The translations under genes were made by a program, and so were the position numbers. A stretch of 64,000 nt of DNA. Source: Desertivirga arenae (lineage in GTDB: Bacteria; Bacteroidota; Bacteroidia; Sphingobacteriales; Sphingobacteriaceae). The notes beneath the pieces were generated by a model, which ran no database searches, was not told the origin of the DNA, and saw nothing but the letters and a program-made list of their open reading frames with translations. Positions 34,610 to 54,751 of this stretch are shown here, piece after piece. Numbering within the stretch: position 1 is the first letter of the stretch; each line of letters starts with the position of its first letter. The stretch lies in assembly GCF_017355785.1 (NCBI RefSeq), contig NZ_JAFEWE010000001.1, positions 310,001 through 374,000 on the forward strand, given 5' to 3'.

Positions 34610-34682
34610 TGATGTAATGCTTACCGCTTGTGTTATTATTTTGTGATCTTCATTCGCAGAGAATCCTCTGCCCCTCTTCATT

Positions 34683-37833: not shown

Positions 37834-37941
37834 TTCTCCTGATGCAATTGTTTCGTTTGTTTATAATGGCGAGTAGAATGGGCACTTCCGGCCTACTCAT
37901 TTGTTAATTAATGGATCAAATTTGAGCAGGATTAAAGGCCT

Positions 37942-37972
37942 TATTGCTTAAAAAAGGGGGTCGAAATGTTTA
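37942..37972 (-). promoter_or_regulatory. Mannan-locus motif, site A (symporter operon)
   Basis: On the minus strand the site reads AAACATTTCGACCCCC, then TTTTTTAAGCAATA. It shares ACATTT, ACCC, the T-run and GCAATA with site B upstream of susC, at the same spacing. It lies about 110 bp before the symporter start and is a candidate regulator-binding and promoter site. Confidence 0.65.
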
Positions 37973-38035
37973 TTTACAATCGGATCATACGCTATATATG
38001 ACCCAGGCTGAGTGTAAAGGATAGGCTGGGCTTGT

Positions 38036-38072
38036 ATAAAAAAAGCAGGCTCCGAATTGGGAGACCTGCTTT
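38036..38072 (-). terminator. Rho-independent terminator after the GH26 lipoprotein gene
   Basis: AAAGCAGG and CCTGCTTT form the outer stem, with an inner CTCC/GGAG around GAATT. On the minus strand the stem is followed by seven T. It lies about 30 bp after the stop of the GH26 gene and ends the susC-susD-SGBP-GH27-GH26 transcript before the symporter operon begins. Confidence 0.85.
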
Positions 38073-38104
38073 ACCATAAACCAACTTTTAGTATATATTT
38101 TCGT

Positions 38105-39331
38105 CTACTTTGGAGACGTGTACATTTGCCGTTTGAGCTCTGAAGCAAACATTACATAAGAACTGCTTTTGAACACACCAAAATCAGCCTCAGCCGGATG
38201 ATTTTTGTAAGGTGTCCAATAAGACGAAGTTGTATTAGCCCAAACCAGCACATAAGCCATTTCAATCTGTTGCAATTGCAGACTGGCAAGAAGTTTTTGC
38301 GTGTACCAGTTAGTAGTGGTCAGGTTTTGCTGTCCCGCTTCGGTAAAGGCAGCTATTTTATTCTTCTGTTTGGCGTAATCAGAAACGATCTTTAGTTTAT
38401 TAGAAATGGTGGAATTGCTTACATTGCTATTCAAGGCATAGTTATCGGTACCTATAATGTCAACATAATCATCTCCGGGGTAGAACTCCAGGTATTGCGT
38501 TAAGCCATTATATTCTCCACCCGGCGACCAGCAATAAAGGAAGTTGTGAACTTCAAGTTCGTTTTTAAGGTAGTTAACCGTAAATTGAAAAAGCTCCTTG
38601 TATTGGGCAGGAGTACAATGCGTTTTGCCCCACCAGAACCAGGCCCCATCCATTTCATGAAAAGGCCTGAAGATAACAGGTACGAGCTTGCCGTCTGCTC
38701 CAACAAGGGATTTAGCATAGTCCGCAATCTGCTTTAAGGAGCCTTTGTACACCTCGTGATGCGATCCGCCAGGAAGAATTTTACTTACTGCTTCCACTGG
38801 CGATTCATTCCAATTGAAACTTCCTTTTGAAACGGGGTTGCTGTAATGCCAGGAATAGGTATTTATCCCTCCCCTGTTATAAGCCTCTATCGTTAACTCT
38901 TTGGCAATCTTTCTCTCGTAATCAAACCATCCACCTTCTGCCCATCCGGCTATATAATTAAAGTCGTGTCCGTAAACTACAGGGTAAGAGCCGGTAACAT
39001 CCTTAACGTCTGACCTTTCTTTTGATACAGCCGGAAGATGCTGTTCGTTTGCCCAACCTGTTGATGCATTTATTACTCCCCTTTTGGTTGCATCCTGGTG
39101 TCCAAAAAGGATGTTCTTCTTCGAAACCTTTTTCAGGTTATAGAAGAGCCAGGCTGTTTCTTGTGTGACATTTTTATCTACCAACCATAACTTCACTGTC
39201 GATAGTTCAGGCACTACCTCCGTCTCCTCTGGTGCCGGCTCAGGAGCTGGCTCTCCTCCACTCTTCTTTTTGCAGGAAACTAAACAGAAACCTGCAAGGA
39301 TCAGGAAGACCGCTATTTTGTTAAAATGCAT
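38105..39331 (-). CDS. GH26 endo-beta-mannanase, lipoprotein
   Basis: This 408-aa protein has a lipoprotein signal ending LVSC (Cys20), then a Pro/Glu linker (about 26-42). A GH26 catalytic domain follows: acid/base Glu226 in FRPFHEMDGAWFWWG and nucleophile Glu331 in AAFTEAG. GH26 enzymes cut beta-1,4-mannan. The lipid anchor would place it on the outer membrane, on either face. It is the last gene of the susC operon. The domain is close to that of the GH26 at 51466-52602 (shared GHQDAT/GHQHAT, FRPFHE, WGKxHCT). Confidence 0.93.
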   Translation of the reverse strand: MHFNKIAVFLILAGFCLVSCKKKSGGEPAPEPAPEETEVVPELSTVKLWLVDKNVTQETAWLFYNLKKVSKKNILFGHQDATKRGVINASTGWANEQHLPAVSKERSDVKDVTGSYPVVYGHDFNYIAGWAEGGWFDYERKIAKELTIEAYNRGGINTYSWHYSNPVSKGSFNWNESPVEAVSKILPGGSHHEVYKGSLKQIADYAKSLVGADGKLVPVIFRPFHEMDGAWFWWGKTHCTPAQYKELFQFTVNYLKNELEVHNFLYCWSPGGEYNGLTQYLEFYPGDDYVDIIGTDNYALNSNVSNSTISNKLKIVSDYAKQKNKIAAFTEAGQQNLTTTNWYTQKLLASLQLQQIEMAYVLVWANTTSSYWTPYKNHPAEADFGVFKSSSYVMFASELKRQMYTSPK

Positions 39332-39366
39332 ATTGCGTGCTTTATTTATTTTTTAATCAACCACTC

Positions 39367-40602
39367 TTATCTTTTTCCTAATCTTAGCATCAATACATCC
39401 TGTGCAGGTATATTGGCTTTTAAGACCTTCTTCGTAGTGCCCTGATCTTTTTTCGACCATAGGTTACGAACCTTATATGTCGTAGTCCGGGCGTTTAACT
39501 CCCGTTTGGCAAAAGAATCGCTGATCGTATTGGCCTCCCAGTTCATTTCTATGGTCTTAGGACTTTTAGAACGATTAAGGAAGCAAACTGCCCAATCGCC
39601 GTTCTTCAATGGCTTATACCATGTTTCAACGCTGTCTTTCACACTATGCCGGAATCCCTGGATTCCCAACTCGTCCTGATCAACGGCGATAACCTCTTTA
39701 TTAGTCAATATCTCTACCGTTTGCCTGTTCATGTTTCTTAGGTCATTGCCTGAGATCAAAGGAGCAGCAATCATTGCCCACATAGAAAAATGAGCCCGGT
39801 CTTGATTGGCAGGCATTCCGTTCCCTACTTCCAGCATATCCGGGTCGTTCCAATGCCCTGGTCCAGCGTACTCGCGAAGTCCTTCTTGTTTGTCAAGGAT
39901 CTGCATAACTCCCCAGGATTTCCAGGTACCATGATCTTCGATACAATCAAAGCAGTTGAAAATATCTCCTGTAGTTCTCCACAAGTGGCCGACATTCTGG
40001 CCCCATTCCCAGGGCTTATCAGTTCCCCATTCGCAGATGCTCAATACAATCGGCCTTCCTGCTTTGCGTAATGCAGCAGCAATGGTTTTATAAGCGCCTT
40101 CCGCTTTTAGCCCCTCTGTATTACACCAATCGTATTTCAAATAGTCAATACCCCATTTCGCATACATTTGTGCATCCTGGAATTCAAAACCTCTGCTGCC
40201 AGGACGGCCCCCGCAGGTTTGGGATCCTGCATCAGAATAAATTCCCAGTTTCAACCCTTTTGCATGAACATAGTCAGCAAGGGCCTTGATTCCTGAAGGA
40301 AAGCGTTTGGGATCGGGGTGAATAAAGCCAAGACTGTCCCTGTCTCCATGCCAGCAGTCGTCGATATTGATATAGGTATAACCCGCGTCTTTCATTCCGG
40401 ACGATACCATGGCATCTGCGATTTCCCGTATCATTTTTTCATCCACGTTGCAGGCAAATTTATTCCAGCTGTTCCATCCCATAGGCGGAGTTAAAGCCAG
40501 GCCTTCAAACTTGGTGTAATTTTGAGCATAGTTGTTTCCCTGGGCGAAGCCGCTTAAGGATAGGCCCAATGCCGCAACCAGGCCAAGTATTGTTTTTCTC
40601 AT
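39367..40602 (-). CDS. GH27 alpha-galactosidase
   Basis: This 411-aa protein has a signal peptide (cut near residue 21, GFAQG). The GH27 barrel reads TPPMGWNSWNKFACNV, then INIDDCWHG. The nucleophile is Asp158 in YLKYDWCN and the acid/base is Asp213 in RTTGDI. A C-terminal beta domain follows. It removes alpha-1,6-galactose side chains from galactomannan so that GH26 can act further, probably in the periplasm. It is encoded between the glycan-binding protein and a GH26 lipoprotein. Confidence 0.93.
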   Translation of the reverse strand: MRKTILGLVAALGLSLSGFAQGNNYAQNYTKFEGLALTPPMGWNSWNKFACNVDEKMIREIADAMVSSGMKDAGYTYINIDDCWHGDRDSLGFIHPDPKRFPSGIKALADYVHAKGLKLGIYSDAGSQTCGGRPGSRGFEFQDAQMYAKWGIDYLKYDWCNTEGLKAEGAYKTIAAALRKAGRPIVLSICEWGTDKPWEWGQNVGHLWRTTGDIFNCFDCIEDHGTWKSWGVMQILDKQEGLREYAGPGHWNDPDMLEVGNGMPANQDRAHFSMWAMIAAPLISGNDLRNMNRQTVEILTNKEVIAVDQDELGIQGFRHSVKDSVETWYKPLKNGDWAVCFLNRSKSPKTIEMNWEANTISDSFAKRELNARTTTYKVRNLWSKKDQGTTKKVLKANIPAQDVLMLRLGKR

Positions 40603-40689
40603 TTTATTAATTATCTAAGTGTTTGTTTAATGTTCAAATCAACTCTAATCGAAAGGATAGTTCCCCGTTTACGGACGCACCCTTATACT

Positions 40690-40768
40690 CCCGGAATAAT
40701 CCGGGCCAGCCACACGAAAGAGAGGGTGGTTCAAGCCATAAACTCCCTGGTTGCCTATGCAACCAGGG
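40690..40768 (-). other. Two hairpins between SGBP and GH27 genes
   Basis: CCCGGA-ATAA-TCCGGG (40690-40705) and CCCTGGTTGC-CTAT-GCAACCAGGG (40745-40768) lie in the 187-base gap. The second has a 10-bp perfect stem but no T-run on the minus strand. It may protect the upstream susC-susD-SGBP message or reduce read-through into the GH27 gene, a usual way to make more of the surface proteins. Confidence 0.55.
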
Positions 40769-40789
40769 ATAGGTGCAGTAGAGCCTGCT

Positions 40790-41821
40790 TTATTTAACCA
40801 AGAGAATATTGTCCAGATAAAAGGTAGCCGGATCGCCGTTAACCTGCATAATAAAGTCGTCGAGTTTAGAAACTCCGGACCCTTTGAATAAATCGAGGTC
40901 GAATTTGAAATAGGTCCATTTGTTAGCTGGGATATTAAGCGCCTGAGTATTGGCCCAGTTGAAGTTAAAGCTTATTACCTTATCAACCTCAGCTCCCTTT
41001 ACCCAGAATGTAACGTATTTATATTGTGCCAGATCTACCGGATTCTTCATGTGTAACTGAAATCCTCCCCATGAACCAGTGTAGGTAGCCTTCAGGGAAT
41101 TGGAACCACTCACAGAAAAGGTATTTGCAGTTGCATAATTAATACTCCATCCCCAGTAATCAACATTCGCTGGTTGCCCTTCAGTAAAAATCTGGTAGGC
41201 ATTGGAGATGTATACCACCTCCTGCTCTGTTGCTTTGGTACCTGAAGAATTGGTGATTAAGAGCTTTGCGCGGCTTTGTGTACTTGCTGGCATATCTATC
41301 ACCAGTTCTTTCTTAGATTTTGAAACCACAACAGCTTCATCCGTGGTTCCGTCAATCAGCACTTTGCTTACATCTTCAAGGTTTATTCCAGTAAGCGTTA
41401 CCCGTGATCCTGCCTCAACATCTTTCGCTGATACCTCGCTGACTGTTGGAAGGGCGATAACTTTAAAAGGTACTCTTACAACTTTTCCAGCCTTATTCGT
41501 GAATATAATATTTTGAGGACCGCCGCTTGCTGTATCCGGTACGCGGAACACAATAGCGTTCTCGTTATTAAATACAGGATTGAATCCTGCAGGTACGCTG
41601 TCTTTCTCGAACACAACGCTCTCTATGGCTCCTAATCCCGAACCCTTGACAATCAGAACGTCGCCTCCTGAGCCTTCTCCCGGGCCCACCTCCTGAATAT
41701 TGAGCTCTCCCGGACCCGACTCGTTCATGCCATTAGAGTCTTTTTCACAAGAAGTAAAGAGGATACAGGCCCCGGCAATTGCAGCCGTGCAATTTATCCG
41801 GATATATTTTAATAAGTTCAT
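40790..41821 (-). CDS. Surface glycan-binding lipoprotein with IPT/TIG domains
   Basis: This 343-aa protein has a lipoprotein signal ending LFTSC (Cys25) and an acidic stretch after it, favouring surface export. Two IPT/TIG beta domains (about 42-125 and 126-205: GGDVLIVKGSGLGAIESVVF; AGSRVTLTGINLEDVSKVLIDG) precede a C-terminal beta-sandwich with aromatic residues (WGWSINYATANTF, WTYFKFDLDLF) likely to bind mannan. It occupies the SusE/SGBP position directly after susD, 18 bp away. Confidence 0.85.
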   Translation of the reverse strand: MNLLKYIRINCTAAIAGACILFTSCEKDSNGMNESGPGELNIQEVGPGEGSGGDVLIVKGSGLGAIESVVFEKDSVPAGFNPVFNNENAIVFRVPDTASGGPQNIIFTNKAGKVVRVPFKVIALPTVSEVSAKDVEAGSRVTLTGINLEDVSKVLIDGTTDEAVVVSKSKKELVIDMPASTQSRAKLLITNSSGTKATEQEVVYISNAYQIFTEGQPANVDYWGWSINYATANTFSVSGSNSLKATYTGSWGGFQLHMKNPVDLAQYKYVTFWVKGAEVDKVISFNFNWANTQALNIPANKWTYFKFDLDLFKGSGVSKLDDFIMQVNGDPATFYLDNILLVK

Positions 41822-41839
41822 TTCAATTTCCTTTTAAGG

Positions 41840-43411
41840 TTAATAATAGTTTACTGATGGCTGAGCTAACATTGGGTTTAATAAGATCTCAGCGGCAGGA
41901 ACTGGAAGGAACAACTGGCTTTCTGATGTAAAATATCCTTTAACATCTGCATGATTAATAGTTCTTACACCGTTGTTTGTTACATACTCACCACGTTCCT
42001 GGTTTTCAAGGATTTCCTTTGCTTTTGCAAAGCCCTGACGCTGGACATCGAACCAGAACTCGCCTTCAAAATTGAACTCGATCATTCTCTCATGCAGGAT
42101 CATGTCCTTCGTTATTGAGGTCTTTCTTTCTGTAAATCCAGCCCTCTTACGAACTTCGTTAAAGGCATCCAGCGCTGTTGCATCTGAGGTAGATGCATTG
42201 TCTCCTAGAACGGCTTCAGCATATATGAGCAGAACATCCGCGTATCTCAAAACATAGGTACACATGTTATTACTTACACCAATAACCTTTGTGACGCCGT
42301 CGCCGGGCCCAACTATGTATTTAGCAGTATTTGTACGTGTTGCTGTATAACTTCTTTTGGAGTTGTCTGTGGTCAGGGTATCGTAGGTAAAACCCGTGGG
42401 AAAATTATTGTTCACCCAATCGGTACGATGAAAGCCATGCTCCATTACGCTTCTCCGCCTTAAGTCGCCTCGTTCAAAGGCCGTAAGTAAATTAATAGAA
42501 GGGACTACAGAAGAATAACCGCCTGCTCCCAGAGGGTCAAGAAGAGCACCAGGACCTATGTTGGTTTGAACGTGATTTGCAGAAGACCAATCGCCATTTT
42601 CTATCCATTGAAAAGCGAAAAGAGACTCCTCATTACCATTTGCTGCAGCAGTTGAAAACAACTGGTAGTAGTCGGGATATAACTTATACTGACCGGATTT
42701 TATCACTTCCCATGCTTTTTCCTTTGCATTGGCATAATCCTTCATGTACAAGTAAACTTTGGCCATCATCCCTTTGGCAGAATAGGCATTTACCCTTTTC
42801 CTTGGAATTGAGGTTATTAAAGGAAGCCCGCTTTCTGCAGCTTTCAGATCCTCTATGATGAATCTTAATACGTCGGCCTGTTTATGCCTGGGAACATTGA
42901 AGTCTGAACCGGCAGCCAGAGCTACAGGATCTGTAATGATAGGCACATCTTTAAATACTCTCGTCAGATAGAAGTAGGCAACGGCCCGCATAAACCTTGC
43001 TTCTGCAATTCCCTTATTTAAAAATTCCTGGTCTCCAATTTTAGCTTTCTTTTGTTCGAAGGCATTGATGAGTATAGTTGAAACGCCAGCTACTTTGTAG
43101 AACGATTTCCAGGCCTTCATTACCTGGGCATCGTTTTCAGATACGGTGAAGTTCATATAGGGGGCATAATCACCAGGACCAGAAGTGATCCCTGTGCCGC
43201 CCATGATATCTCCTATACTTAACCAGGCACGATCCATGAAAGGTTGCCAGGCTGCACCGTATAGCAAACCGGTTGCTCCCTCCACTTGTGCAGCGTTTGT
43301 ATAATATGTCTCCAGTGTAGGAGCATTAGGGTCTGGTTTTTCTAGAAAATCTTTGCTGCAGGAGACCATGCAAGTGGCCGCTGTTAGCAGGACTAATAAT
43401 TTATGTTTCAT
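41840..43411 (-). CDS. SusD/RagB-type mannan-binding lipoprotein
   Basis: This 523-aa protein has a lipoprotein signal ending MVSC (Cys18), then SKDFLEKPDPNAPTLETYYTNAAQVEGATG. TPR-like helices follow, and the C-terminal signature is YVLRYADVLLIYAEAVLGDNA then FNEVRKRAGF. It caps the adjacent SusC channel (gap 21 bp) and binds imported manno-oligosaccharides. Length and signatures are normal for the family. Confidence 0.93.
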   Translation of the reverse strand: MKHKLLVLLTAATCMVSCSKDFLEKPDPNAPTLETYYTNAAQVEGATGLLYGAAWQPFMDRAWLSIGDIMGGTGITSGPGDYAPYMNFTVSENDAQVMKAWKSFYKVAGVSTILINAFEQKKAKIGDQEFLNKGIAEARFMRAVAYFYLTRVFKDVPIITDPVALAAGSDFNVPRHKQADVLRFIIEDLKAAESGLPLITSIPRKRVNAYSAKGMMAKVYLYMKDYANAKEKAWEVIKSGQYKLYPDYYQLFSTAAANGNEESLFAFQWIENGDWSSANHVQTNIGPGALLDPLGAGGYSSVVPSINLLTAFERGDLRRRSVMEHGFHRTDWVNNNFPTGFTYDTLTTDNSKRSYTATRTNTAKYIVGPGDGVTKVIGVSNNMCTYVLRYADVLLIYAEAVLGDNASTSDATALDAFNEVRKRAGFTERKTSITKDMILHERMIEFNFEGEFWFDVQRQGFAKAKEILENQERGEYVTNNGVRTINHADVKGYFTSESQLFLPVPAAEILLNPMLAQPSVNYY

Positions 43412-43432
43412 TTCTGATTTCGTTAGTAATGG

Positions 43433-46400
43433 TTAGAATGTGATATTAGCTCCTATGGTAAAAGTCCGGGGATTAGGATAATTGCCATTATCAACATTAG
43501 ACATCAGGGCATTATTATTATATGAGCCCAGTTCCGGATCTAAGCCGGAGTACTTTGTGAAGGTATATAGGTTCTGGCCCAGAATGAACACTCTAGCGTT
43601 AGAAATCTTCGCTTTACTGATCAATGTTTTAGGTAAGTTATACCCTAGTGTTACATTCTGTATTCTTAAGTAGGAGCCGTCCTCTACAAACCTTGAGGAT
43701 AAAGATAGGTTGTCGCCATGCCATTGATTATAACGAGGCAATGAACCTTGAGGATTATTAACAGAATAACGATTGTTTAAAACGTCTACCGACTGGTTAT
43801 AGTAAACTTTGTATGAACCCTCTGTCAATAGCTTGGTGAAATTTAAGATATCTGCTCCATAACTGCCTTGAAGGAATACAGAAAGATCAAAGCTTTTGAA
43901 AGTAAAGTTATTGGTTAAACCAAATGTGAACTTCGGATTGGGGTTACCTATAGATGTGATATCATAGGAGTCGATCTTTCCGTCAGGACTACCATTGGGT
44001 CCACTAAGATCCCTGTATTTCACGTCGCCCATCCAAATACCTTTTGGTCCGATAGCAATTAGTGGATTTCTGGCACTGCTGTTAATTTCCTGTTCGGACC
44101 TGTACAGACCATCTGCAATGTATCCGTAAAACTGACCTACCGGTTTGCCGATAACCGTTCTTGTAACAACCCGGTCAGCATTCAGGGCATCAGTAGCTGA
44201 ATAAGTAATTGCACTTGTACCTGCATTCAACTCCTTCAGCACGTTCTTATAATGGGTAATGTTAAAGGAGGTTCTCCAGGTAAAAGGCCCCCGTTGAATG
44301 TTGTAGCTAGTAGCCGAAACATCGATACCAGTGTTTTGGATCTTGCCAGCGTTTGTAATCGGAGATTGAATATCATCCCAATTGGTTCCAATTCCGGTAA
44401 ATGCAGGCAAATTAGATGGCAAAAGCATATCGGTAGTAATTTTCCTGTACACGTCAATGGTTAGTTCCAGTTTCTTATTAAAAAGGGTTGCATCCGCAGC
44501 GGCGTTATAGGTATTTACCGATTCCCATTTTAAAGCTGGGTTAGGAACATTACTAGGCCAGCTTCCGGGACCAAATGCACCTGTTTGTTGTCTTAACCCC
44601 GCAGTATAGGCATTTGCATAATTAGTTACACCTCTTCCTACAGCACCTGCGCCAAAGCGGAACTTCAAATAATTCAACAGTTTCAAGTTATCAGCAAACT
44701 TCTCGTTAGTAACTGTCCAACCGAAAGAAACGGCCGGGAAATAACCATACCTGTTATCGGGACCGAAATAGGATGTACCGTCCCTTCTGATAGAGAAGTT
44801 AACCGAGTATTTATTATCGTAAGAGTATCCGGCACGGCCAAAATATGAAGCCATTGCCTGCTCGCTTAAACTTCCCCCGGTTTCCTGCCCTACCGCCGAT
44901 CCTGCAGCGATGGATTGGAAGTTCAGGTTCAAATCTCTTCTGCCTGCACTTAAACCATCCCATTTAGACTCCCAGGCTTCTTGTCCTAATTGAGCTGAGA
45001 CGTTATGCTTATTGAATTTCTGATTATAACTTAGATAGTTGGTTATACTCCAGAAAGAGGCTATTCCTCTTGATAAGTTGATCCGGCTAACAGGGATTAT
45101 TGCAGTAGTGCCGTAAATTAATTGCGGCTCGAAAAAATTGCCTTCGTTGACTGAATAATCTACTCCAAGCTGAGACCTGAAAGAGAAATTCTTGCTTAGC
45201 GAAACCTCACCATATAAACTTGCTAAGGCCTTCGCCTGAATGTTACGAATATCTCTCAGGGAAGCGAGAGCTATTGGATTACGGTTTTCACCAAAGTTAT
45301 AGCCACCGATGCGAATTGCAGGTGCGAATTGATCACCAACAAGAATAGGAGCAGCAGGGCTGTTTGATACGGCAACACTGATAGGGGTAGCTGAACCATT
45401 CGTTAATGAAACTTGCTGATTAGAACGGGTGAAGGTTGAATTTAGTCCCACCTTAAACCAATCTTTCACCTGCTGATCCAGGTTGACCCGTATGGCATAT
45501 CTCTTCAAGCCAGAACCAATAACCACACCTGACTGATCGTAATAATTTACAGAGGTATAATAGGTTGTTTTATTGGCTCCTCCTGAGAATGAAACCTGAT
45601 GTTGTTGCGTGTTCCCTCTTTGAAATAATGCATCCTGCCAGTCGGTTCCTTTTCCCAATACAGATGGATCCCGGTATTCAGGAATTGGTACATAGGAATT
45701 CTCGTTTACAGTCGCAATCTCTTCGAGCACTTCATTCTCATATTGAGCAAACTGACTTAGGTTCATCATGTCAAGCTTCCTCTGAATCTGAGAAACACCA
45801 GCAAATACGTCATAGGAAATCTTCGATTCACCTGCCCTACCCTTTTTTGTTGTCACAATTACAACCCCATTAGCAGCGCGGGATCCGTAAATAGCTTGAG
45901 CTGATGCATCTTTAAGGATATCAATAGAGGCCACATCAGCTGGATTTATATTCGCAAGTGGACTTTGAGCGGTTTGGGCAGCTCCAGCACCTCCGTCTGT
46001 GAAATTGGTACTTGGCGCACCGCCGATAGGAACACCATCGATAACATAAAGGGGTTCGTTGCCATTTACAGAGGTAATACCCCCGATACGTACGGAAACA
46101 CCGCCTCCAGGTTGACCACCGTTAGTACTTATAGTAACGCCGGCTACTTTACCCTGAATTGCCTGATCAACACCTGCAACAGGTGTATTTTTAATGTCTT
46201 TTTCTGATACTGAGGCAATGGATGAAGTTATTTCGGCTCTTCTTGCTGCGCCGTAACCTATAACCACAACTTCGTTCAGCTTGTTACTCGCAGATGGATT
46301 TAGGGTTACTTTCACAATGTTGTTGTTTCCTACACTTACTTCCTTTGTTTGAAAGCCAACAAAGGAGATCTGCAACACTGCATTACTTTGGGGAACCCTG

Positions 46401-46606
46401 ATCGAGAAACTACCATTATCCGCTGTTTGAGCTGAAGCGGTTCCATTTTTTAGTTTAACAGAAGCGCCGGGGAGAGGCAATCCCGTATCATCTATAACAA
46501 TACCGGTTATCACCCGGGTATCTTGAGCATAGGCCCCAAATACTGATAGCAGAGCTAGCAGGAGGCATACCAGTGGAATAAATTTTATACTATTATCTTT
46601 CTTCAT
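43433..46606 (-). CDS. SusC/RagA-type TonB-dependent manno-oligosaccharide transporter
   Basis: This protein of about 1057 aa has a signal peptide (MKKDNSIKFIPLVCLLL, cut after AYAQ). A carboxypeptidase-D-like domain follows (VITGIVIDDTGLPLPGASV), then a plug with YGSRAANGVVIVTTKKGR, and a beta-barrel ending NITF. I chose the ATG at 46606 (MKKDN); four more codons are open upstream. It is the first gene of the main mannan transcript and has motif site B about 200 bp upstream. Confidence 0.93.
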   Translation of the reverse strand: MKKDNSIKFIPLVCLLLALLSVFGAYAQDTRVITGIVIDDTGLPLPGASVKLKNGTASAQTADNGSFSIRVPQSNAVLQISFVGFQTKEVSVGNNNIVKVTLNPSASNKLNEVVVIGYGAARRAEITSSIASVSEKDIKNTPVAGVDQAIQGKVAGVTISTNGGQPGGGVSVRIGGITSVNGNEPLYVIDGVPIGGAPSTNFTDGGAGAAQTAQSPLANINPADVASIDILKDASAQAIYGSRAANGVVIVTTKKGRAGESKISYDVFAGVSQIQRKLDMMNLSQFAQYENEVLEEIATVNENSYVPIPEYRDPSVLGKGTDWQDALFQRGNTQQHQVSFSGGANKTTYYTSVNYYDQSGVVIGSGLKRYAIRVNLDQQVKDWFKVGLNSTFTRSNQQVSLTNGSATPISVAVSNSPAAPILVGDQFAPAIRIGGYNFGENRNPIALASLRDIRNIQAKALASLYGEVSLSKNFSFRSQLGVDYSVNEGNFFEPQLIYGTTAIIPVSRINLSRGIASFWSITNYLSYNQKFNKHNVSAQLGQEAWESKWDGLSAGRRDLNLNFQSIAAGSAVGQETGGSLSEQAMASYFGRAGYSYDNKYSVNFSIRRDGTSYFGPDNRYGYFPAVSFGWTVTNEKFADNLKLLNYLKFRFGAGAVGRGVTNYANAYTAGLRQQTGAFGPGSWPSNVPNPALKWESVNTYNAAADATLFNKKLELTIDVYRKITTDMLLPSNLPAFTGIGTNWDDIQSPITNAGKIQNTGIDVSATSYNIQRGPFTWRTSFNITHYKNVLKELNAGTSAITYSATDALNADRVVTRTVIGKPVGQFYGYIADGLYRSEQEINSSARNPLIAIGPKGIWMGDVKYRDLSGPNGSPDGKIDSYDITSIGNPNPKFTFGLTNNFTFKSFDLSVFLQGSYGADILNFTKLLTEGSYKVYYNQSVDVLNNRYSVNNPQGSLPRYNQWHGDNLSLSSRFVEDGSYLRIQNVTLGYNLPKTLISKAKISNARVFILGQNLYTFTKYSGLDPELGSYNNNALMSNVDNGNYPNPRTFTIGANITF

Positions 46607-46807
46607 GTTGATTAGCATTTTTGGAATTTGTCATAATTGGTCGAACTTGTTTTTAGTAAATTTTTCACTTCATGGTTTCATTTGTTTAAATAATTAGTCA
46701 TCTTTTTACCCGGTTAATTTTTCGCTTACTAACAAAGGTTTCAGTGCTCCACTGATGTTGTTGGTTAGTAATTGGTTTGTGAAGTAAAAGTAGATTGGTT
46801 ACAAAAC

Positions 46808-46842
46808 TGTATTGCTAAAAAACAGGGTCTCAAATGTTAAAC
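46808..46842 (-). promoter_or_regulatory. Mannan-locus motif, site B (susC operon)
   Basis: On the minus strand it reads TTTAACATTTGAGACCCTG, then TTTTTTAGCAATACAG and a TTTTG. It is the best match to the shared pattern. TTTG, 19 bases and TACAGTTTTG inside it come close to the Bacteroidota promoter (TTTG / TAnnTTTG), so the regulator site may overlap the -33 region. Confidence 0.65.
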
Positions 46843-46990
46843 CACGAAAAAGATACTTATAATCAACTAGTTAAACCATTGCCTTAATGAAAATCGAGGA
46901 GAATATGGGGATTCTTTTTGCGTTTGTTGACTGGCGTGTGCCTCTGGAAAAATCAATTCAACGCAAGTGGCAGGTAAAGCTCTCCGCCGA

Positions 46991-49900
46991 TCATTCCTCC
47001 CCGCTATGTTCCTTACTCTCCGCGTATTTGGAAGGTATTACGTCGAATTCGGCTTTAAAGGATTTTACAAAATTTTTGGAGGTTTTAAATCCTACTTTGT
47101 AACAGATCTGGGAAATAGTAAAATCTCCTCTTTCCAGCAATTGGGCGGCTCTTTTGAGGCGATAGGATTTAATAAAATCTAGAGGAGTTTTGCCTGTTAA
47201 GTTAAGGATCCGTTTGTAAAGGGTAACCCTGCTTACATATAGGAGGCTACTAAGCTCGTCTACAGAAAAATTGGTATTGGAGATATTCTTTTCAATGATC
47301 TGTATGACTTCTTGCAGGAACCTTTCATCTGCCGATTCTAGTTCCACATCTGCTGGTTTTACTTCCACCTGTTTCTGATAGGTTTTACGGAAGGATTCCT
47401 GCTGTTGTAGGATGTTACGTAATTTGGTTTGAAGGATCTCGAAACTAAATGGCTTGGTCATATAGTCATTGGCACCCGAATCCAGTCCTTTCAGTTGACT
47501 TTCTTCCCCTGTCATCGCCGTCAGCAAGATCACTGGAATATGGAAGGTCCTGTTATCGCTTTTGATCTTTTTACAAAGTTCAATACCTCCCATTTCAGGC
47601 ATGGAAATATCACTAACAACGATATTAGGGTGATAGAACAAGGCTTTCTGCCATCCGTCCTTCCCATTATTGGCTTCGATAACATTGTAATCTTCTTTCA
47701 GGTTGTCTTTAAGATAAAACCTGAAATCAACGTCGTCTTCTACTATTAGTACTGTCAGCTTTTTACTGGAAACCACCATTTCTGCTGGCTTCATTATGTC
47801 TGCAGGTTGTTTTTCTTCAACTAGGATTTCTTCTAGTAAGTCCTCCGTTTTTGTGAGTTCAGAAACCCTTTCAAGCGGAAGAATAACCGTAAAGCAACTT
47901 CCGAAATTAAGCTCACTCTCTAGAACAATATCTCCTCTGTGCAAGCGAGCAAATTCTTTTGCAATAGACAAGCCTATACCGCTTCCCTGGTTAATAATGA
48001 CATCAGGAATCTCGCTCTGAAAAAAGCTTTCAAAGATTTTGTCCTGCTTGTCCTTTTCAATGCCGATGCCCGTATCCCTTATTTTTATTTCTACCTTTTC
48101 GTCGGCAGTCAGGTCAAGCGCAACGTTCACCTTGCCATTCTCGAGGGTAAACTTAAAAGCATTCGATAGCAAGTTAAACAGGATACGTTCCAGCTTATCG
48201 TGATCGAAGGAGAATAGAAGGCCTTCGAATGCCGAATTGAATGAAAGTTGGATATTCTTCTGTTCTGCAATGTCTTTAAAAGAAAAAGAAATCTCTTTCA
48301 CAAACTTCACAAAGTCCCCAGGTCGCTTTTGCACTCTTAACTCTTTCAACTCCATCTTCCGGAAATCCAGCAACTGATTTACCAAGTGTAAGAGTCTTCG
48401 CGCATTGCGTTGGATCATACCGATCTGCTCCAAGGCCTTTTTATCTTCAGTATTCTGCTTAAGCAATTTCTCTACAGGAGCCAGAATTAAAGAAAGAGGC
48501 GTACGGAATTCGTGACTGATATTAGTAAGGAATTTAATTTTCAGAGCATCGAGTTCTCTGTAACGCATTGCTTCAACCCTTTCCTGCTCAATGATCAGCC
48601 GAGCTTCCGCTTTCTCTTGTTCAATAAGCCTTTGCACTTCCAACTTTTCCTGTTCTGCTGCAAATTCAGCTTTGAGCTTCCGAATGCCTCTTTGTCTCAA
48701 CAGGTACAAACAGGCAATAAAGGCCAATGCGTATAATACATAAGCCCACGAAGATTTATAGAAAGGGGGCAAAATCCGAACTTTCAATGAGGCTGCATTT
48801 TCCGTCCATGTACCATCAGGATTGGATACTCGTACCTTAAAAGTATATTCTCCGGGGTCTAGATTGGTGTAAGTTGCTTTACGAATATTATTATCGGCGG
48901 TGGTCCATTGATGGTCAAAGCCTTCCATCATATATTGATGTTTAACTTTGTGCGCTTCCAAATAGTTAAGGGAAGCAAAAGCTATGGTGAAAACGTTCTG
49001 GTAGCTTTTCAAAACAATCTCTTTGGTATCAAGGATGGACTGCCTGAGAATAATATCCCCATCTATAGCTTCTCCGACCTGCACTGTTTTGTTAAAGAGC
49101 TGAAGGTCGGTTATATAAACCGGGCTTTTGGTTTTATTGGTTTTGACCATTTGGGGATCAAAAAGATTGAAACCATCGGCACCCCCGAAAACCAATTCTC
49201 CGGATCTTAATTTTAAAGAAGCATTCCGGTTAAATTCCTTCCCTTGAAGTCCGTCGCTCTCATCAAAAGTTGTGAAGCGCAGGCTAAGTGTCGATTTGTC
49301 TCCAATGGTTGCCTTTGTTAATCCGTTCGAGGTACTTATCCAAAAAGCGCCTTTACGATCTTCTTCCAACTCCTGAATATTATTGTCTGGCAGGCCATTT
49401 TCGGTGGTATAGTTTATATACCGTTTCTTAGAGGGGGTATAAATACTTAAGCCTTCTCTCGTTCCGATCCAGATGTTCCCGGCTCTGTCTTGCCTGAGAC
49501 AGTTAATCGTATTATTGATTAGGCTATTTCCGTTATCTCCACTATTGATAATGGCTCTAAACTTTTTTGCACCCCGGTCCAGTACGCTTAGTCCGTAGCC
49601 GGTTCCAAACCAAACACTTCCCTTTGAATCTTCTAAGATACAAAACACGTAATTAGAGTTGAGCTGCTTTCCCTGCAGGGTAAAGGCTTTAAACGTTTTG
49701 GTGTTCCTATTAAAAAGATTTATACCCCCTCCCATGGTGGTCACCCAAAATCTATTTGCAGAATCTTCATAAATTGCTGAGATCCTGTTATCGCTGATAC
49801 TGGAGGGATTGGAAGGATTATTTTTAAAATGCAGGAAGTTTTTTCCATCGAAGCAATCCAGTCCACCGGAGTAGGTCCCCACCCAAAGCTTCCCGGTTTT

Positions 49901-51190
49901 GTCAATATATAAGCTTACAACTGCATTATGAGCCAGGCTTTGAGGATCGGAAGGATTGTGCTGGTAGGTTTTGAAAGTCCTTGTTTTGCGATTAAAATAT
50001 ACAAGCCCCTTTCCATTGGTAGCGATCCATAAATTCCCCGATCTATCTTCAACGAAATCGTTAATATCATTATAAATTAGACTATTAGGAGAACTGGAGT
50101 GCTTTATCAGATCAAACTTAACGATTCCTGGATGGTAATAATTAACTCCTCTTTTATAAGTGCCAACCCATACCGTGCCGGTGTTATCGTAGTAGATGGT
50201 TGAGAGATTATTCTGACTTAAAGACTTGTCATTATCTTCCTGGCTCGAAATGTACTCTACTTTCAAATTTGCCTTATCCAGCAAAGTAAGACCGCCGTGA
50301 TCGGTTGCAACCCATAACTTATTCTTATCATCCTGAACAATACCTGAAACGATATTAGAGCTCAATCGAAGCGGAGACGAGGCCTTGTTAATTGTAGTAA
50401 TTGAGCCAGAAGCAGCGTCGATCAGAAATACACCGGGAGAAAACATACTATCGTACACCCAAGGATCACCATCATTATCTACAAAGATCCTGTAGGTATC
50501 ATTTTCAGTCTTAATAACATTGCTTTGAACATGTACCCGCTTTACAACCTTAAGGGTTGCTCTGTCTATTTTTTCTAATAGACCATCCGCATGAATAATC
50601 CAGATGTCGTTTCTAGTTCCAAACCGCAGATCGATGATAGGACTGGCTGATATACTGTATTTATCACGAAGAACGTGGTTTAAATAATCGGTTTCATTTG
50701 ATTTGGGATCATAATGATAGAGGCCGGTATTAAGCGAGATAAACCAATACCAACCTAACTTGTCTTTTCTTACTCCGCGTGCAGAGTTTTCTGAAATATT
50801 TATTTTTCTAAGCTCGTTAGTAACAGAAGAGAAACGGTCGGTGCCTGGATCGTAAACCTGATTTCCAATTCTGCTTTCTACCCAAAGCTTTCCGCCCGGC
50901 CCCTCCGCTATACTTCTTATGTCGTTATCGCCAACTGTTGTAGAGTCGGATGATCTATGCTGAAAAGTTCTGAACGAATAGCCGTCATAACGGGCAAGGC
51001 CTGCCATAGTGCCAAACCAAACGAACCCCTTCTGATCTTTATAAATGCAATTTATCTGGCTATGAGGCAGCCCGTCTTTTATTGTCAGATGAGAAAAATG
51101 ATATAAATGCCCCTGTGCATAACCCCTGCTTATATTGAAGGAAACTAGTAAAATGATTATCAGTCTTGTAAACATAAACAGGCTATTCAA
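46991..51190 (-). CDS. Hybrid two-component system regulator (HTCS) of the mannan locus
   Basis: This 1399-aa protein joins a full signalling path in one chain. A signal peptide is followed by two-component-regulator propeller repeats (about 28-720, repeated GxxWxGT/LWVGTY-type strings), a Y_Y_Y domain (about 730-790) and a membrane helix (SWAYVLYALAFIACLYLL). The histidine kinase has His893 in NISHEFRTPL and an ATPase part (GTGIGIEKDKQ-type box and GSGIGLSIAKEF). A receiver domain (Asp1194 in VVSDISMPEMGG) and an AraC HTH domain at the end (about 1290-1390) follow. HTCS proteins bind oligosaccharide in the periplasm and activate their locus. It is placed upstream of susC on the same strand and has motif site C at its own 5' side. 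Confidence 0.95.
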   Translation of the reverse strand: MNSLFMFTRLIIILLVSFNISRGYAQGHLYHFSHLTIKDGLPHSQINCIYKDQKGFVWFGTMAGLARYDGYSFRTFQHRSSDSTTVGDNDIRSIAEGPGGKLWVESRIGNQVYDPGTDRFSSVTNELRKINISENSARGVRKDKLGWYWFISLNTGLYHYDPKSNETDYLNHVLRDKYSISASPIIDLRFGTRNDIWIIHADGLLEKIDRATLKVVKRVHVQSNVIKTENDTYRIFVDNDGDPWVYDSMFSPGVFLIDAASGSITTINKASSPLRLSSNIVSGIVQDDKNKLWVATDHGGLTLLDKANLKVEYISSQEDNDKSLSQNNLSTIYYDNTGTVWVGTYKRGVNYYHPGIVKFDLIKHSSSPNSLIYNDINDFVEDRSGNLWIATNGKGLVYFNRKTRTFKTYQHNPSDPQSLAHNAVVSLYIDKTGKLWVGTYSGGLDCFDGKNFLHFKNNPSNPSSISDNRISAIYEDSANRFWVTTMGGGINLFNRNTKTFKAFTLQGKQLNSNYVFCILEDSKGSVWFGTGYGLSVLDRGAKKFRAIINSGDNGNSLINNTINCLRQDRAGNIWIGTREGLSIYTPSKKRYINYTTENGLPDNNIQELEEDRKGAFWISTSNGLTKATIGDKSTLSLRFTTFDESDGLQGKEFNRNASLKLRSGELVFGGADGFNLFDPQMVKTNKTKSPVYITDLQLFNKTVQVGEAIDGDIILRQSILDTKEIVLKSYQNVFTIAFASLNYLEAHKVKHQYMMEGFDHQWTTADNNIRKATYTNLDPGEYTFKVRVSNPDGTWTENAASLKVRILPPFYKSSWAYVLYALAFIACLYLLRQRGIRKLKAEFAAEQEKLEVQRLIEQEKAEARLIIEQERVEAMRYRELDALKIKFLTNISHEFRTPLSLILAPVEKLLKQNTEDKKALEQIGMIQRNARRLLHLVNQLLDFRKMELKELRVQKRPGDFVKFVKEISFSFKDIAEQKNIQLSFNSAFEGLLFSFDHDKLERILFNLLSNAFKFTLENGKVNVALDLTADEKVEIKIRDTGIGIEKDKQDKIFESFFQSEIPDVIINQGSGIGLSIAKEFARLHRGDIVLESELNFGSCFTVILPLERVSELTKTEDLLEEILVEEKQPADIMKPAEMVVSSKKLTVLIVEDDVDFRFYLKDNLKEDYNVIEANNGKDGWQKALFYHPNIVVSDISMPEMGGIELCKKIKSDNRTFHIPVILLTAMTGEESQLKGLDSGANDYMTKPFSFEILQTKLRNILQQQESFRKTYQKQVEVKPADVELESADERFLQEVIQIIEKNISNTNFSVDELSSLLYVSRVTLYKRILNLTGKTPLDFIKSYRLKRAAQLLERGDFTISQICYKVGFKTSKNFVKSFKAEFDVIPSKYAESKEHSGEE

Positions 51191-51356
51191 ATACAGTATA
51201 ATACATGGTTAGCTCAAATCGTATACGTTATTGTTTTATAACGGTTACCAGGAGTGTTTCTATGCAGCTTTTCTCCTTTGTAAATCGGGCTATTTACGCT
51301 TAACAAATGGAGAACTCTCTGTTAACATTGCAAATCTAATAAGGGCAGAGGGCTAA

Positions 51357-51386
51357 TTTGGTAAAAAATAAGGGCTGAAATGTTAA
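51357..51386 (-). promoter_or_regulatory. Mannan-locus motif, site C (HTCS gene)
   Basis: The minus strand reads TTAACATTTCAGCCCTTA, then TTTTTTACCAA. It matches site B at AACATTT, AG, CCC, the T-run and CAA. It lies about 170 bp upstream of the HTCS start, which suggests that the regulator gene is a member of its own regulon. Confidence 0.6.
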
Positions 51387-51465
51387 GGAAGGAACCATAA
51401 AACAGCAAAGCAGGGTCTTTTAAAACACCTGCCATTGCTATCTTCATATCAAGAAAAGATTTGCC

Positions 51466-52602
51466 TTATTTGTAAATCTGCTTAAGATCCGACTCAAACA
51501 AGGTATAGGGATCATTATAAAACTTTAAGAAATCCGGGACGGAAGGATGATCGGGGAATGGCGCGTAATAGTGCGTGGGACTAGTTGCATCATTACGCCA
51601 TACCAATACGTAGGCAATCCGGATCGAGTCTCTTTTTATAACTTTTAATAAAGCTTCTGTCCACCAGTTTGGGTTAGCTACAGATTCAAGTCCGGTTTCG
51701 GTAAAGGCAGCGAGTTTACTGGAACGGGCAGCAATATTTGAAACAATGCCAAGTTTCTCTGCAGCTAAATCAAGCTTGTACCCATCGCGCCCCATATCGC
51801 CATAATTATCGGTTCCGAGCATATCTACCCATTCATTACCGGGATACCTTTCTAAATATTCAGATTCTGTAGTGAAAGTATTATCAGGCGAGAATGCGTA
51901 AATAAAGTTGTGAACGTTACATGAATCTCGCAGGTAAGAAATAGTAAACCGCCACAGATCCTTGAACTCCTGCTCGGTACAATGTGACTTTCCCCACCAG
52001 AACCAATCTCCATCCAACTCGTGAAAAGGCCTGAATATCACTGGAGCCAAAGTTCCATCAGAAGTTCTCAGGCTTTTAGCCCAATCACCAACCGTAGATA
52101 GTATTTTCTTATAATCCTCGTGATTCTTTCCTCCGGGAATAATATACCTGACTGCTGGCAAAGAAATTGAATCCTTCCAGTAAAACCCGCCTCCGGATAC
52201 AGGATTTGAGAAGTGCCAGGCTACAGTAGTCACCCCTCCCCTTTTATAGGTATCTAATACGTTCTGTTTTAAAAAAGCTGCATTTTTCTTTATCTGATCT
52301 TCAGGCAATCCAGACAAACCAGAAAGGTCAATACCGATCACTGCAGGATGAGTGCCTACGACAGATTTCACATCTGATCGCCCCTCATCACCTTTCCATC
52401 CGTGCCCGTATTCGGTGGCATGTTGGTGCCCAAAAAGGGTATGTTTGGCTGAGAGTTTAAATAAGTTCCTGAAAAGGGCTTTTGTTTCTTTTGTGGCCTT
52501 CTTATCGATCAGCCTGCGCTTTTGACCAATTACATCCGCTACGAAAAATAACATCATAAACGACAGTAATAAAACCGTTTTAACATCTTTAACTTTGTGC
52601 AT
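51466..52602 (-). CDS. GH26 endo-beta-mannanase or mannobiohydrolase, secreted
   Basis: This 378-aa protein has a plain signal peptide (VADVIGQ, cut near residue 26) with no lipobox, so it is probably periplasmic. The GH26 domain has acid/base Glu195 in FRPFHELDGDWFWWG and nucleophile Glu302 in AAFTETG. It is about as long as exo-acting mannobiohydrolases of the family, which would release mannobiose for the symporter and epimerase; exo action is inference. It has its own upstream motif (site D). Confidence 0.92.
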   Translation of the reverse strand: MHKVKDVKTVLLLSFMMLFFVADVIGQKRRLIDKKATKETKALFRNLFKLSAKHTLFGHQHATEYGHGWKGDEGRSDVKSVVGTHPAVIGIDLSGLSGLPEDQIKKNAAFLKQNVLDTYKRGGVTTVAWHFSNPVSGGGFYWKDSISLPAVRYIIPGGKNHEDYKKILSTVGDWAKSLRTSDGTLAPVIFRPFHELDGDWFWWGKSHCTEQEFKDLWRFTISYLRDSCNVHNFIYAFSPDNTFTTESEYLERYPGNEWVDMLGTDNYGDMGRDGYKLDLAAEKLGIVSNIAARSSKLAAFTETGLESVANPNWWTEALLKVIKRDSIRIAYVLVWRNDATSPTHYYAPFPDHPSVPDFLKFYNDPYTLFESDLKQIYK

Positions 52603-52661
52603 TCTACGTGTGTATTATTTTTTCCCCAAAGGGTATTAGCAAAATTAGACCGCGTTCAGGG

Positions 52662-52696
52662 CTGCATTGATTAAAAAGAGGTATTGGTTTGTTAAA
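52662..52696 (-). promoter_or_regulatory. Mannan-locus motif, site D (GH26 at 51466-52602)
   Basis: The minus strand reads TTTAACAAACCAATACCTC, then TTTTTAATCAATGCAG. Compared with site B it keeps TTTAACA, CCT, the T-run and CAAT-CAG at identical spacing but has changes in the middle. It ends 60 bp before the start codon. Confidence 0.55.
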
Positions 52697-52732
52697 TTTC
52701 TCTAATTGTCTCTTGTGCTTTTGAAGTTGTCA

Positions 52733-52772
52733 TTAAAAAGAGAACCTCGCGGCCTGGGAAACCGGAGGTTCT
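52733..52772 (-). terminator. Hairpin with T-run, minus strand, upstream of the GH26 gene
   Basis: AGAACCTC and GAGGTTCT (52741-52748 and 52765-52772) form the stem, with an inner CGG/CCG. On the minus strand the stem is followed by CTTTTT. It lies between the orphan motif site F and site D, so it would end any short transcript begun at site F. Confidence 0.7.
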
Positions 52773-52807
52773 GCATAACCAATAAATATAATAAACCAAT
52801 TTAGAAG

Positions 52808-52838
52808 GGACTTAAAAAAACCTTCCTAACGGAAGTCG
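52808..52838 (-). terminator. Small hairpin followed by seven T on the minus strand
   Basis: CTTCC-GTTA-GGAAG is followed on the minus strand by GTTTTTTT. It lies just after the possible promoter of site F. The stem is only 5 bp, so it is a weak candidate. Confidence 0.4.
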
Positions 52839-52898
52839 ACGAGGGAATTATCTTCCTTTTCGTACTACAAATGTAGAAGAGCTTAATGCTGTGAACTT

Positions 52899-52925
52899 TC
52901 ACAAATAGGGTTTGAAATGTTAAAG
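52899..52925 (-). promoter_or_regulatory. Mannan-locus motif, site F (orphan copy)
   Basis: The minus strand reads CTTTAACATTTCAAACCCTA, then TTTGTGA. The first half equals site B closely, while the T-run is short. About 30 bases further on, CTACATTTG fits a TAnnTTTG -7 box. No gene starts after it before two terminator-like hairpins, so the copy is orphan or drives a short RNA. Confidence 0.5.
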
Positions 52926-52976
52926 TTTCGCCTTTAATACCTTTAAGTTTGCCTCCTATGCGTACACTGTAAAATA

Positions 52977-53010
52977 GAACAGCGGCTATATGTTTATAAA
53001 GCCGCTGTTC
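52977..53010 (-). terminator. Terminator after the CBM35-GH26 gene
   Basis: GAACAGCGGCT (52977-52987) pairs perfectly with AGCCGCTGTTC (53000-53010), an 11-bp stem. On the minus strand it is followed by CTATTTTAC. It lies 55 bp after the GH26 stop. A frame that overlaps it (52801-53058) is therefore unlikely to be a gene. Confidence 0.8.
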
Positions 53011-53064
53011 GAACATTAAGAATAATCTCAACCAACCACCCGGGTTGAAAATTATCACTATCCT

Positions 53065-54525
53065 TTATTTCAGGGATGGCATTTCATCCAAGGTAATTAC
53101 ATAAGGATGTGCCATGATCTTTTTCCAAAGCGTTAAGGTATTGTAAGTTCTCATTCTTGTATAATCGCCATACCAGGTCATAAACCAAGACCATGCTGCT
53201 GCATCTGCAACAAGGTTATCTGGGTCGGGATTAGAACCACATTCAGAAAGTGCTACCATTTTCTTGCCCCCATACAACGCGTTCATATTGTTAAACTCAA
53301 TTGATTGAGAGCTATGATCACCCTGCTTATAAATGTCCCTTCCAACGATGTCAACATAAGCATCACCCGGATACCAGGCTTCATCATTAGGTTCGCGAGT
53401 CCACACCCAAATCAAGTTTTTTAAGCCGTGATAATTAACCATACGGTCATACATAATCTGATAAAGCTTTTTGCAAGGTTCAGGTCCTTTAGCTCCCCAC
53501 CAAAACCAGCCCCCTGCTGCTTCATGTAAAGGTCGCCAGATAACTGGTACATTCTGAACTTGTAATTCCTTTAATAAGCCAGACACGTAGTCAATATCAC
53601 TGATCATCGCATTATACTCAGGAGAACCAACAGAAAGTATCTTTGAAACATCGAAAGTTGTTTTATCTGCATAAAACTCTTCGGTTTGGCGGGAAGGATC
53701 CCTCCAGTGCCAAAGAAATACAGGGATACCATTCCTATCCCACCACGTTTTAGCATCACGAACACTGGTTTTATCATCATACCAGGTATAGCCACGGTTT
53801 ACATGCATAAAATCGACGCCCATAATTGCAGGTTCCTTGCCTGTATTCTGCTTCAGCCAATTTGTTTCGTCAAAACTATTCAAGGTCATTACGCCTGATA
53901 GTATTTTCTTACCATAGTTATCTCGTAAAAACTGATAAACCTTGTTAGCTTGTATACTTGCGCCCTGGGTGACTAGTGAGGTGTTAATATTGAAGCGAGA
54001 GCTGGGATCAATGGCTTCTAATTTCAGGAAATCTATTTGCATATATCCCCATGAATTATTGATTGCAAGGGTATGTGTTCCCGCTGTTAGTTTGAAGCTA
54101 TTTACAATTTTATAATCAGTAAAAGTTGCACTGGCCGGAATTGTAAAATTGGAGGATACCCCATCAATGGCAACAATGTTTGTTTTCTCTCCATAAGGAG
54201 AAGCTGCATTGATATAGATATTATAGTAAGCGTCTGAGGGTATACTTACCTGAAAAGAAACGGAACCAGAGTTCTGCTCGACAAAAAAGCCTCCGGAACG
54301 CCCAGCATCTGCCACAGCTACTGCACCACCTGATAATGTGCCTTGTTCAGCTTCTAATATTGGCCCTGTAAGTGGTGGAGTTGTTGTTCCCCCGCCCGGT
54401 TTACCAGAAATTACCTCTTGTAACTTCAGTGATGTACCTTGTTCGTCTTCCTTCTTACATGCTGAGAGGAGGCTCTGAATAAACAGGAATGCTAATAGGA
54501 CTTTTGTAAGATTTGTTACTTTCAT
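53065..54525 (-). CDS. GH26 beta-mannanase with N-terminal CBM35-like module, lipoprotein
   Basis: This 486-aa protein has a lipoprotein signal ending LLSAC (Cys23) and a Gly/Thr/Pro linker (about 40-54). A CBM35-like beta-sandwich follows (about 57-172: EAEQGTLSGGAVAV, then GYMQIDFLKLE), and then the GH26 barrel with acid/base Glu335 (WRPLHEAAGGWFWWG) and nucleophile Glu428 (VALSECGS). It differs from the other two GH26 copies in the active-site text, so it likely has a different cutting preference. A surface endo-mannanase that starts breakdown is the simplest role. Confidence 0.92.
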   Translation of the reverse strand: MKVTNLTKVLLAFLFIQSLLSACKKEDEQGTSLKLQEVISGKPGGGTTTPPLTGPILEAEQGTLSGGAVAVADAGRSGGFFVEQNSGSVSFQVSIPSDAYYNIYINAASPYGEKTNIVAIDGVSSNFTIPASATFTDYKIVNSFKLTAGTHTLAINNSWGYMQIDFLKLEAIDPSSRFNINTSLVTQGASIQANKVYQFLRDNYGKKILSGVMTLNSFDETNWLKQNTGKEPAIMGVDFMHVNRGYTWYDDKTSVRDAKTWWDRNGIPVFLWHWRDPSRQTEEFYADKTTFDVSKILSVGSPEYNAMISDIDYVSGLLKELQVQNVPVIWRPLHEAAGGWFWWGAKGPEPCKKLYQIMYDRMVNYHGLKNLIWVWTREPNDEAWYPGDAYVDIVGRDIYKQGDHSSQSIEFNNMNALYGGKKMVALSECGSNPDPDNLVADAAAWSWFMTWYGDYTRMRTYNTLTLWKKIMAHPYVITLDEMPSLK

Positions 54526-54716
54526 CTGTGTTTAATTTATTTAGTTTAATTGGTGGTTTCGCTGTCTGATGAGACAATCCTGTTTTTCCGTATAAAAAGA
54601 CCGGAAGTATTGTTCTTACAATTGCATCTGAACTCCTTTGGATAAACTCTGCTGAGAGATCCTGAATTCAGTTGCTATAATTAGTTGTCAGGTCAAAAGT
54701 AGGGGTAGCAAAAGTT

Positions 54717-54751
54717 CTGTTTGTATAGAAAAGGGGTTGATAATGTAAAAG
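54717..54751 (-). promoter_or_regulatory. Mannan-locus motif, site E (CBM35-GH26 gene)
   Basis: The minus strand reads TTTTACATTATCAACCCC, then TTTTCTATACAAACAG and a later CTTTTG. It keeps ACATT, ACCC, the T-rich block and CAA-CAG of site B. It lies about 190 bp before the start, nearly the same distance as site B from susC. Confidence 0.55.

Follow-up and report, generated by a model that had tools for sequence, protein, structure and literature searches.

A candidate tandem-repeat operator for the hybrid two-component regulator of a beta-mannan utilization locus in Desertivirga arenae

Known HTCS Operators and the Locus Under Study

Binding of hybrid two-component system (HTCS) regulators at promoters of polysaccharide utilization loci (PULs) has been demonstrated by chromatin immunoprecipitation sequencing (ChIP-seq) and electrophoretic mobility shift assays (EMSA) (PMC3404733; PMC11253607), and 16 HTCS motifs, direct repeats with an average spacing of 21 bp, were predicted for Bacteroides thetaiotaomicron in 2013 (Ravcheev et al.; PMC3878776). 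Here, a stretch of 64,000 nucleotides from Desertivirga arenae (contig NZ_JAFEWE010000001.1, positions 310,001 to 374,000; hereafter, the window) was analyzed, in which a PUL on the minus strand carries six related sequences (sites A to F) that an original prediction had described as the upstream motif of a mannan regulon. On sequence grounds, these sites are very likely the operators of the HTCS encoded at 46991-51190. All window features given below lie on the minus strand.

The comparison with the B. thetaiotaomicron motifs (PMC3878776) was made by layout. The two systems have in common an AraC-type helix-turn-helix (HTH) domain, a direct repeat of two half-sites about two helix turns apart, and the sharing of a single motif by several operons of a PUL. 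They differ in the period (22 bp here vs an average of 21 bp), in the host, which is a member of the Sphingobacteriaceae and not Bacteroides, and in that here the distance to the -7 box is fixed and was measured, with a degenerate second half-site in the window. The mannan-related HTCS_Man-1/2/3 (BT2628, BT3302, and BT3786; PMC3878776) also show 16-bp half-sites with a 5-bp spacer, a likeness of layout; these regulators serve alpha-mannan, whereas the locus studied here, with GH26, GH130, and GH27 genes, targets beta-mannan. A related gene set is that of BoManPUL, a galactomannan PUL of Bacteroides ovatus (PMC5217682) that comprises GH26 mannanases, an alpha-galactosidase and an HTCS and is induced by galactomannan; its alpha-galactosidase belongs to GH36, while the enzyme in D. 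arenae is of the GH27 type.

In the open-access literature (subscription papers and supplements lay outside the search) neither this motif nor any operator of a Sphingobacteriaceae HTCS was found to be described, and a search for a publication on a mannan HTCS of Pedobacter yielded nothing relevant. The operator is a well-supported addition to the known tandem-repeat HTCS operators, with repeats about 21 bp apart, of Bacteroides. The view expressed in the original prediction, that HTCS sites are seldom so clearly defined, is not supported in the light of the 16 motifs already predicted in B. thetaiotaomicron (PMC3878776).

Repeat Structure and Promoter Spacing of the Sites

All six sequences were found where they had been placed; five of them precede, as claimed, the sodium:solute symporter (SSF) operon, susC, the HTCS gene and two GH26 genes, and the sixth (E) is an orphan with no gene directly downstream. 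The reported likeness of A and B holds as well, 23 of 31 ungapped positions being identical. The motif that had been given for the sites, AACATT..ACCC..T-run..CAAT, takes in half-site 1 of a 22-bp direct repeat together with the beginning of half-site 2; E matches the first half only, and D deviates in half 1 (AACAAACC).

A half-site of approximately 16 bp, TTAACATTTGnGnCCC, is directly repeated in sites A, B, C, D, and F, the second copy being the weaker one, with a period of 22 bp and a footprint of about 38 bp. Site A (37935-37972; half 1 37972-37957, half 2 37950-37935; 32.4 bits) would drive the SSF-GH130-epimerase-AraC operon and site B (46803-46840; half 1 46840-46825, half 2 46818-46803; 44.1 bits) the susC-susD-TIG-GH27-GH26a operon. 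Site C (51349-51386; half 1 51386-51371, half 2 51364-51349; 28.1 bits) is located upstream of the HTCS gene, site D (52658-52695; half 1 52695-52680, half 2 52673-52658; 21.3 bits), with a weak half 1, upstream of GH26b, and site F (54712-54749; half 1 54749-54734, half 2 54727-54712; 18.0 bits) upstream of GH26c. Site E (52908-52923) consists of half-site 1 only, and its 18.3 bits refer to model positions 3-29 only.

These scores were obtained by applying to every window position a model built from the sites of relatives only, which picks exactly A to F (18.0-44.1 bits), the next window position reaching 8.8 bits. Since the relatives' sites were found by resemblance to those of the window, this model is not fully independent; the tests of repeat structure and -7 spacing described below are free of this circularity. 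With a leave-one-out weight matrix, each of A to D ranked directly after the four training sites among 77,886 positions, and F ranked sixth. The six sites thus exceed chance by far. In the genome-wide scan that the original prediction had proposed (sequence-only models scoring 150 first-look candidates per genome, so that weak distal sites could escape), no match outside the locus outscored the six, and the next one in the 6.19-Mb genome, 15.5 bits, falls within a coding frame. The next-best matches in this genome, on contigs C38 and C40 and at C12:513082, are located in or beside unrelated frames, look like chance, and were rejected as real sites.

The tandem structure is evidenced by self-comparison: among all shifts, a lag of 22 gave the best self-match in A, B, C, D, and F (46 of 85), a value reached by none of 20,000 permutations. 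The repeat is plainer in relatives, for instance TTAACATTTGTGCCCC-TATTTC-TTAACATTTACATTC (genome G004) and TTAACATTTCTATACCCATATTTAAACATTTCAATACCC (locus L187), and in the non-coding/intergenic DNA of relatives TWWACAW pairs occurred 10 times at lag 22 vs a mean of 1.07 at other lags. This lag is near the 21 bp of described HTCS operators.

A feature absent from the original prediction is the distance between the sites and the -7 box of primary-sigma promoters, TAnnTTTG, which is the consensus of the phylum (PMC7366714; PMC9723704). When positions are counted from the first A of ACA (the anchor), the box begins at +45 in all six sites. It is found at 37917-37924 for promoter A (CAAATTTG, 5/6 letters; anchor 37969), 46785-46792 for B (TACTTTTA, 5/6), 51331-51338 for C (TAGATTTG), 52640-52647 for D (TAATTTTG), 52868-52875 at site E (TACATTTG), and 54694-54701 for F (TACTTTTG), being perfect in the last four. 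The summed -7 score at +45 was 34, while the maximum was 24 in 20,000 shuffles, none of which reached it, and 26 in 20,000 sets of random window positions. When half-site 1 alone was used as a guide, leaving the -7 box out of the model, the -7 distance was 45 or 46 in 23 of 26 intergenic cases from the window and from relatives. In flavobacteria the -7 box occupies -12 to -5 (PMC9723704), so half-site 2 would cover approximately -38 to -23 and half-site 1 approximately -60 to -45; thus, the placement of the motif at the -33 region is appropriate for half-site 2 and not for half-site 1, which lies further upstream.

Co-occurrence of the Motif With the HTCS

The regulator proposed to bind (46991-51190) combines in a single chain a periplasmic sensor with propeller repeats and Y_Y_Y, HisKA and HATPase domains, a receiver, and an AraC-type HTH. 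Loci of relatives were chosen by homology to this HTCS alone and not by the motif; the motif was present in 18 of 22 such loci, mostly preceding PUL genes, as well as in held-out Mucilaginibacter loci. The motif is located upstream of HTCS-linked PUL operons and conserved in orthologous loci. The same motif serves HTCS homologs of about 50% identity encoded beside GH31-PA14 or GH5 genes, so mannan is not supported as the defining trait of the regulon, contrary to the name it had been given.

Several observations weigh against this assignment. The second half-site is weaker or degenerate within the window, the -7 boxes of A and B are incomplete, and the covariation of recognition helix and operator presented below amounts to four parsimony changes over an 82-protein tree, all single clade events. 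Besides, the receiver carries FHIP where (S/C)HIP is expected, HIP being kept and the first residue being F. (S/C)HIP is a motif of the receiver alpha3-beta4 loop tied to interdomain inhibition in Bacteroides HTCSs, with S or C at the first position in 84% of HTCSs (PMC11253607), meaning that it is common and not defining.

Site E, the Choice of Binder, and Alternative Explanations

Site E combines half-site 1 with a perfect -7 box at the usual distance, lacks half-site 2, and is situated between GH26c and a terminator-like hairpin, CTTCCGTTAGGAAG, followed by a T-run (52822-52835), just downstream of the promoter. At the matching position in genome G001 (contig C20) a site serves a phosphofructokinase and a UxuA-like gene, and in M. 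dorajii an orphan site occurs in the same place, after GH26c, followed by a short, truncated-looking open frame. Both suggest gene loss at E, which in the simplest reading is probably the relic promoter of a lost gene, even though the interval from E to D contained no remnant of pfk or uxuA sequence. If E were instead a working promoter, giving rise to a short regulatory RNA in the GH26c-GH26b interval, this would account for the perfect, correctly spaced -7 box and for the terminator-like hairpins downstream; it is an unlikely alternative, considering that half-site 2 is missing, that the fold z-score was only -1.14, that no Rfam match was obtained, and that the sites of G001 and M. dorajii point to gene loss. 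The stretch around E (52735-53010) was observed to be flanked by hairpins on both sides, one at the end of GH26c near 53010-52970 and the other, GAACCTC..GAGGTTC, near 52769-52735.

The original prediction had left two candidates for the binder, the HTCS and an AraC-family protein encoded in the same cluster (32534-33406), of which the first is upheld. Binding to direct repeats near -35 is known of AraC-family proteins as well, and the position of the gene within the PUL agrees with a role as activator of the regulon. Conversely, the presence of sites fails to track the araC-family gene: the congeneric genome G001 (99% complete) has no AraC homolog at E<=1e-30 and nonetheless contains about a dozen sites in two PUL copies, and the 39-kb loci of G259 and G155, where sites at susC are retained, yielded no AraC homolog. 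In addition, in Mucilaginibacter, where the AraC and SSF genes are neighbors, their promoters lack the HTCS motif and share GTTAAAnTnGTATYA instead. The motif follows the HTCS clade, and binding by the AraC protein is thus very improbable; the binder is very probably the HTCS. As the AraC gene is the last of the site-A operon and its homolog in M. dorajii (35%) is preceded by a site of its own, the gene is more likely a downstream target than the source of the binder. With regard to GTTAAAnTnGTATYA, it was observed 30-120 bp upstream of AraC and SSF genes in Mucilaginibacter-type loci (L070-L075, L078-L081, L094-L095), and is possibly either the binding site of AraC or a promoter element in general use in Mucilaginibacter.

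Also very improbable is that the conserved block is an extended housekeeping promoter of Bacteroidetes without a specific regulator, since, even if the -7 box belongs to the conserved unit and equals the phylum consensus (PMC7366714; PMC9723704), the half-sites are conserved 20-50 bp upstream of it, the motif tracks one HTCS clade, and the 6.19-Mb scan revealed no further strong copy, although this genome contains at least 15 HTCS-like matches.

Proposed Mechanism and Organization of the Locus

Based on the assignment of the sites to the HTCS, we infer that the HTCS binds them, and that this binding would depend on phosphorylation, lead to activation and respond to a sugar signal. In the proposed model, mannan oligosaccharides in the periplasm would bind the propeller sensor of the HTCS, leading to phosphorylation of the receiver domain; two AraC-type HTH domains would then occupy the tandem TTAACATTTGnGnCCC half-sites, whose 22-bp period corresponds to about two turns and places them on one helix face. 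As the downstream half-site overlaps the -33 region and its spacing to the -7 box is fixed, the bound dimer could contact RNA polymerase and take the place of a weak -33 element, in the manner of class II activation. In this model five promoters would fire together, namely those of the symporter/GH130/epimerase/AraC operon, of susCD and the following enzymes, of the HTCS gene and of the two GH26 genes. Autoregulation of the HTCS through site C, suggested in the original prediction and positive in this model, is probable and finds support in the C20 copy of G001, where a weaker site precedes the HTCS gene, and in G283 and G259, where that gene comes shortly after GH26 genes whose start is marked by a site.

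The genome of D. arenae comprises 6.19 Mb, with the window on contig C12; among named organisms, Pedobacter sp. SYSU D00535 and Mucilaginibacter are closest to it. The locus has the composition of a beta-mannan PUL, that is, a susC/susD pair accompanied by GH26, GH130, alpha-galactosidase and epimerase genes. In gene order, GH26c with a CBM35 (53065-54525) and GH26b (51466-52602) precede the HTCS gene, which is followed by susC (43433-46618), susD (41840-43411), an IPT/TIG-domain protein that is a probable surface glycan-binding protein (40790-41821), an alpha-galactosidase (Melibiase_2, GH27 type; 39367-40602), the mannanase-family enzyme GH26a (38105-39331), the SSF symporter (35929-37833), a member of the GH130 mannoside phosphorylase family (34683-35873), a GlcNAc 2-epimerase family protein, probably a cellobiose/mannobiose epimerase (33407-34681), and the AraC-family regulator.

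Reach of the Proposed Regulon in Relatives

In G001 (L060 6178-8190 and L062 5403-7901), copies of the operator precede phosphofructokinase and UxuA-like genes as well as an MFS transporter and a ROK kinase, so that the regulon there extends into central sugar metabolism. On contig C18 of the same genome (L063), two back-to-back operators near 14705 (-) and 14751 (+) drive a divergent gene pair, with a GH5 enzyme on one side and, on the other, an acetylesterase with another large enzyme gene behind it. In M. dorajii (L105, 17536-17800) a complete tandem site that lacks a -7 box precedes a short open frame resembling the beginning of a truncated gene; the working susC site comes next.

Recognition Helix and Letters of the Proposed Operator

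A total of 82 HTCSs were grouped by recognition helix, using a site threshold of 11.5 (the maximum in 164 control stretches was 10.4). In the GFK.. class, to which the HTCS of the window belongs, 24 of 31 members had a site above the threshold, and the remaining seven, including the window's own susC site, scored 10.4-11.4, most being recovered by the fuller matrix or model. Related repeats, many of them with an ATACC tail, were found for the GF(N/S/T)NPK class, and none of the 34 HTCSs of the "other" class had a site above the threshold. Within the GFK class, and above the threshold, TTGACA occurred in 15 of 15 cases and TTAACA in none when the HTH1 helix was SRYTLYK; with SRVTLYK the reverse was observed (TTAACA in nine of nine, TTGACA in none). 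This link is consistent with a recognition code, on few events. Tentatively, and as a reading less likely than not, it may be proposed that the choice between A and G in TT(A/G)ACA is set by the third residue of the helix SR(V/Y)TLYK, and the tail, CCC or ATACC, by the helix GFK(S/T).. or GF(N/S)NPK.., respectively.

In the vicinity of many HTCS genes of the "other" class (L191, L193, L196, L204, L210, L212, and similar loci), TTAACATTTGT was observed approximately 150-250 bp downstream of the gene, in some cases as a 22-bp repeat whose tail differs (L204: TTAACATTTG...TTAACAATTG), which suggests that the half-site core is common to a wider HTCS clade.

Concluding Remarks

HTCSs are major regulators of glycan use in Bacteroidota, few of their operators have been defined, and fewer have been tied to promoter geometry. 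The D. arenae locus and its relatives provide an operator at base level, a fixed promoter distance, and a choice between two candidate regulators, and show that the operator is retained when the HTCS lineage sits in loci of differing enzyme content. They also offer a testable link between recognition-helix residues and operator bases, and with it a handle on how HTCSs choose their DNA; if the proposed code is true, the protein sequence of an uncharacterized HTCS could be used to predict its operator, in PULs serving different glycans.

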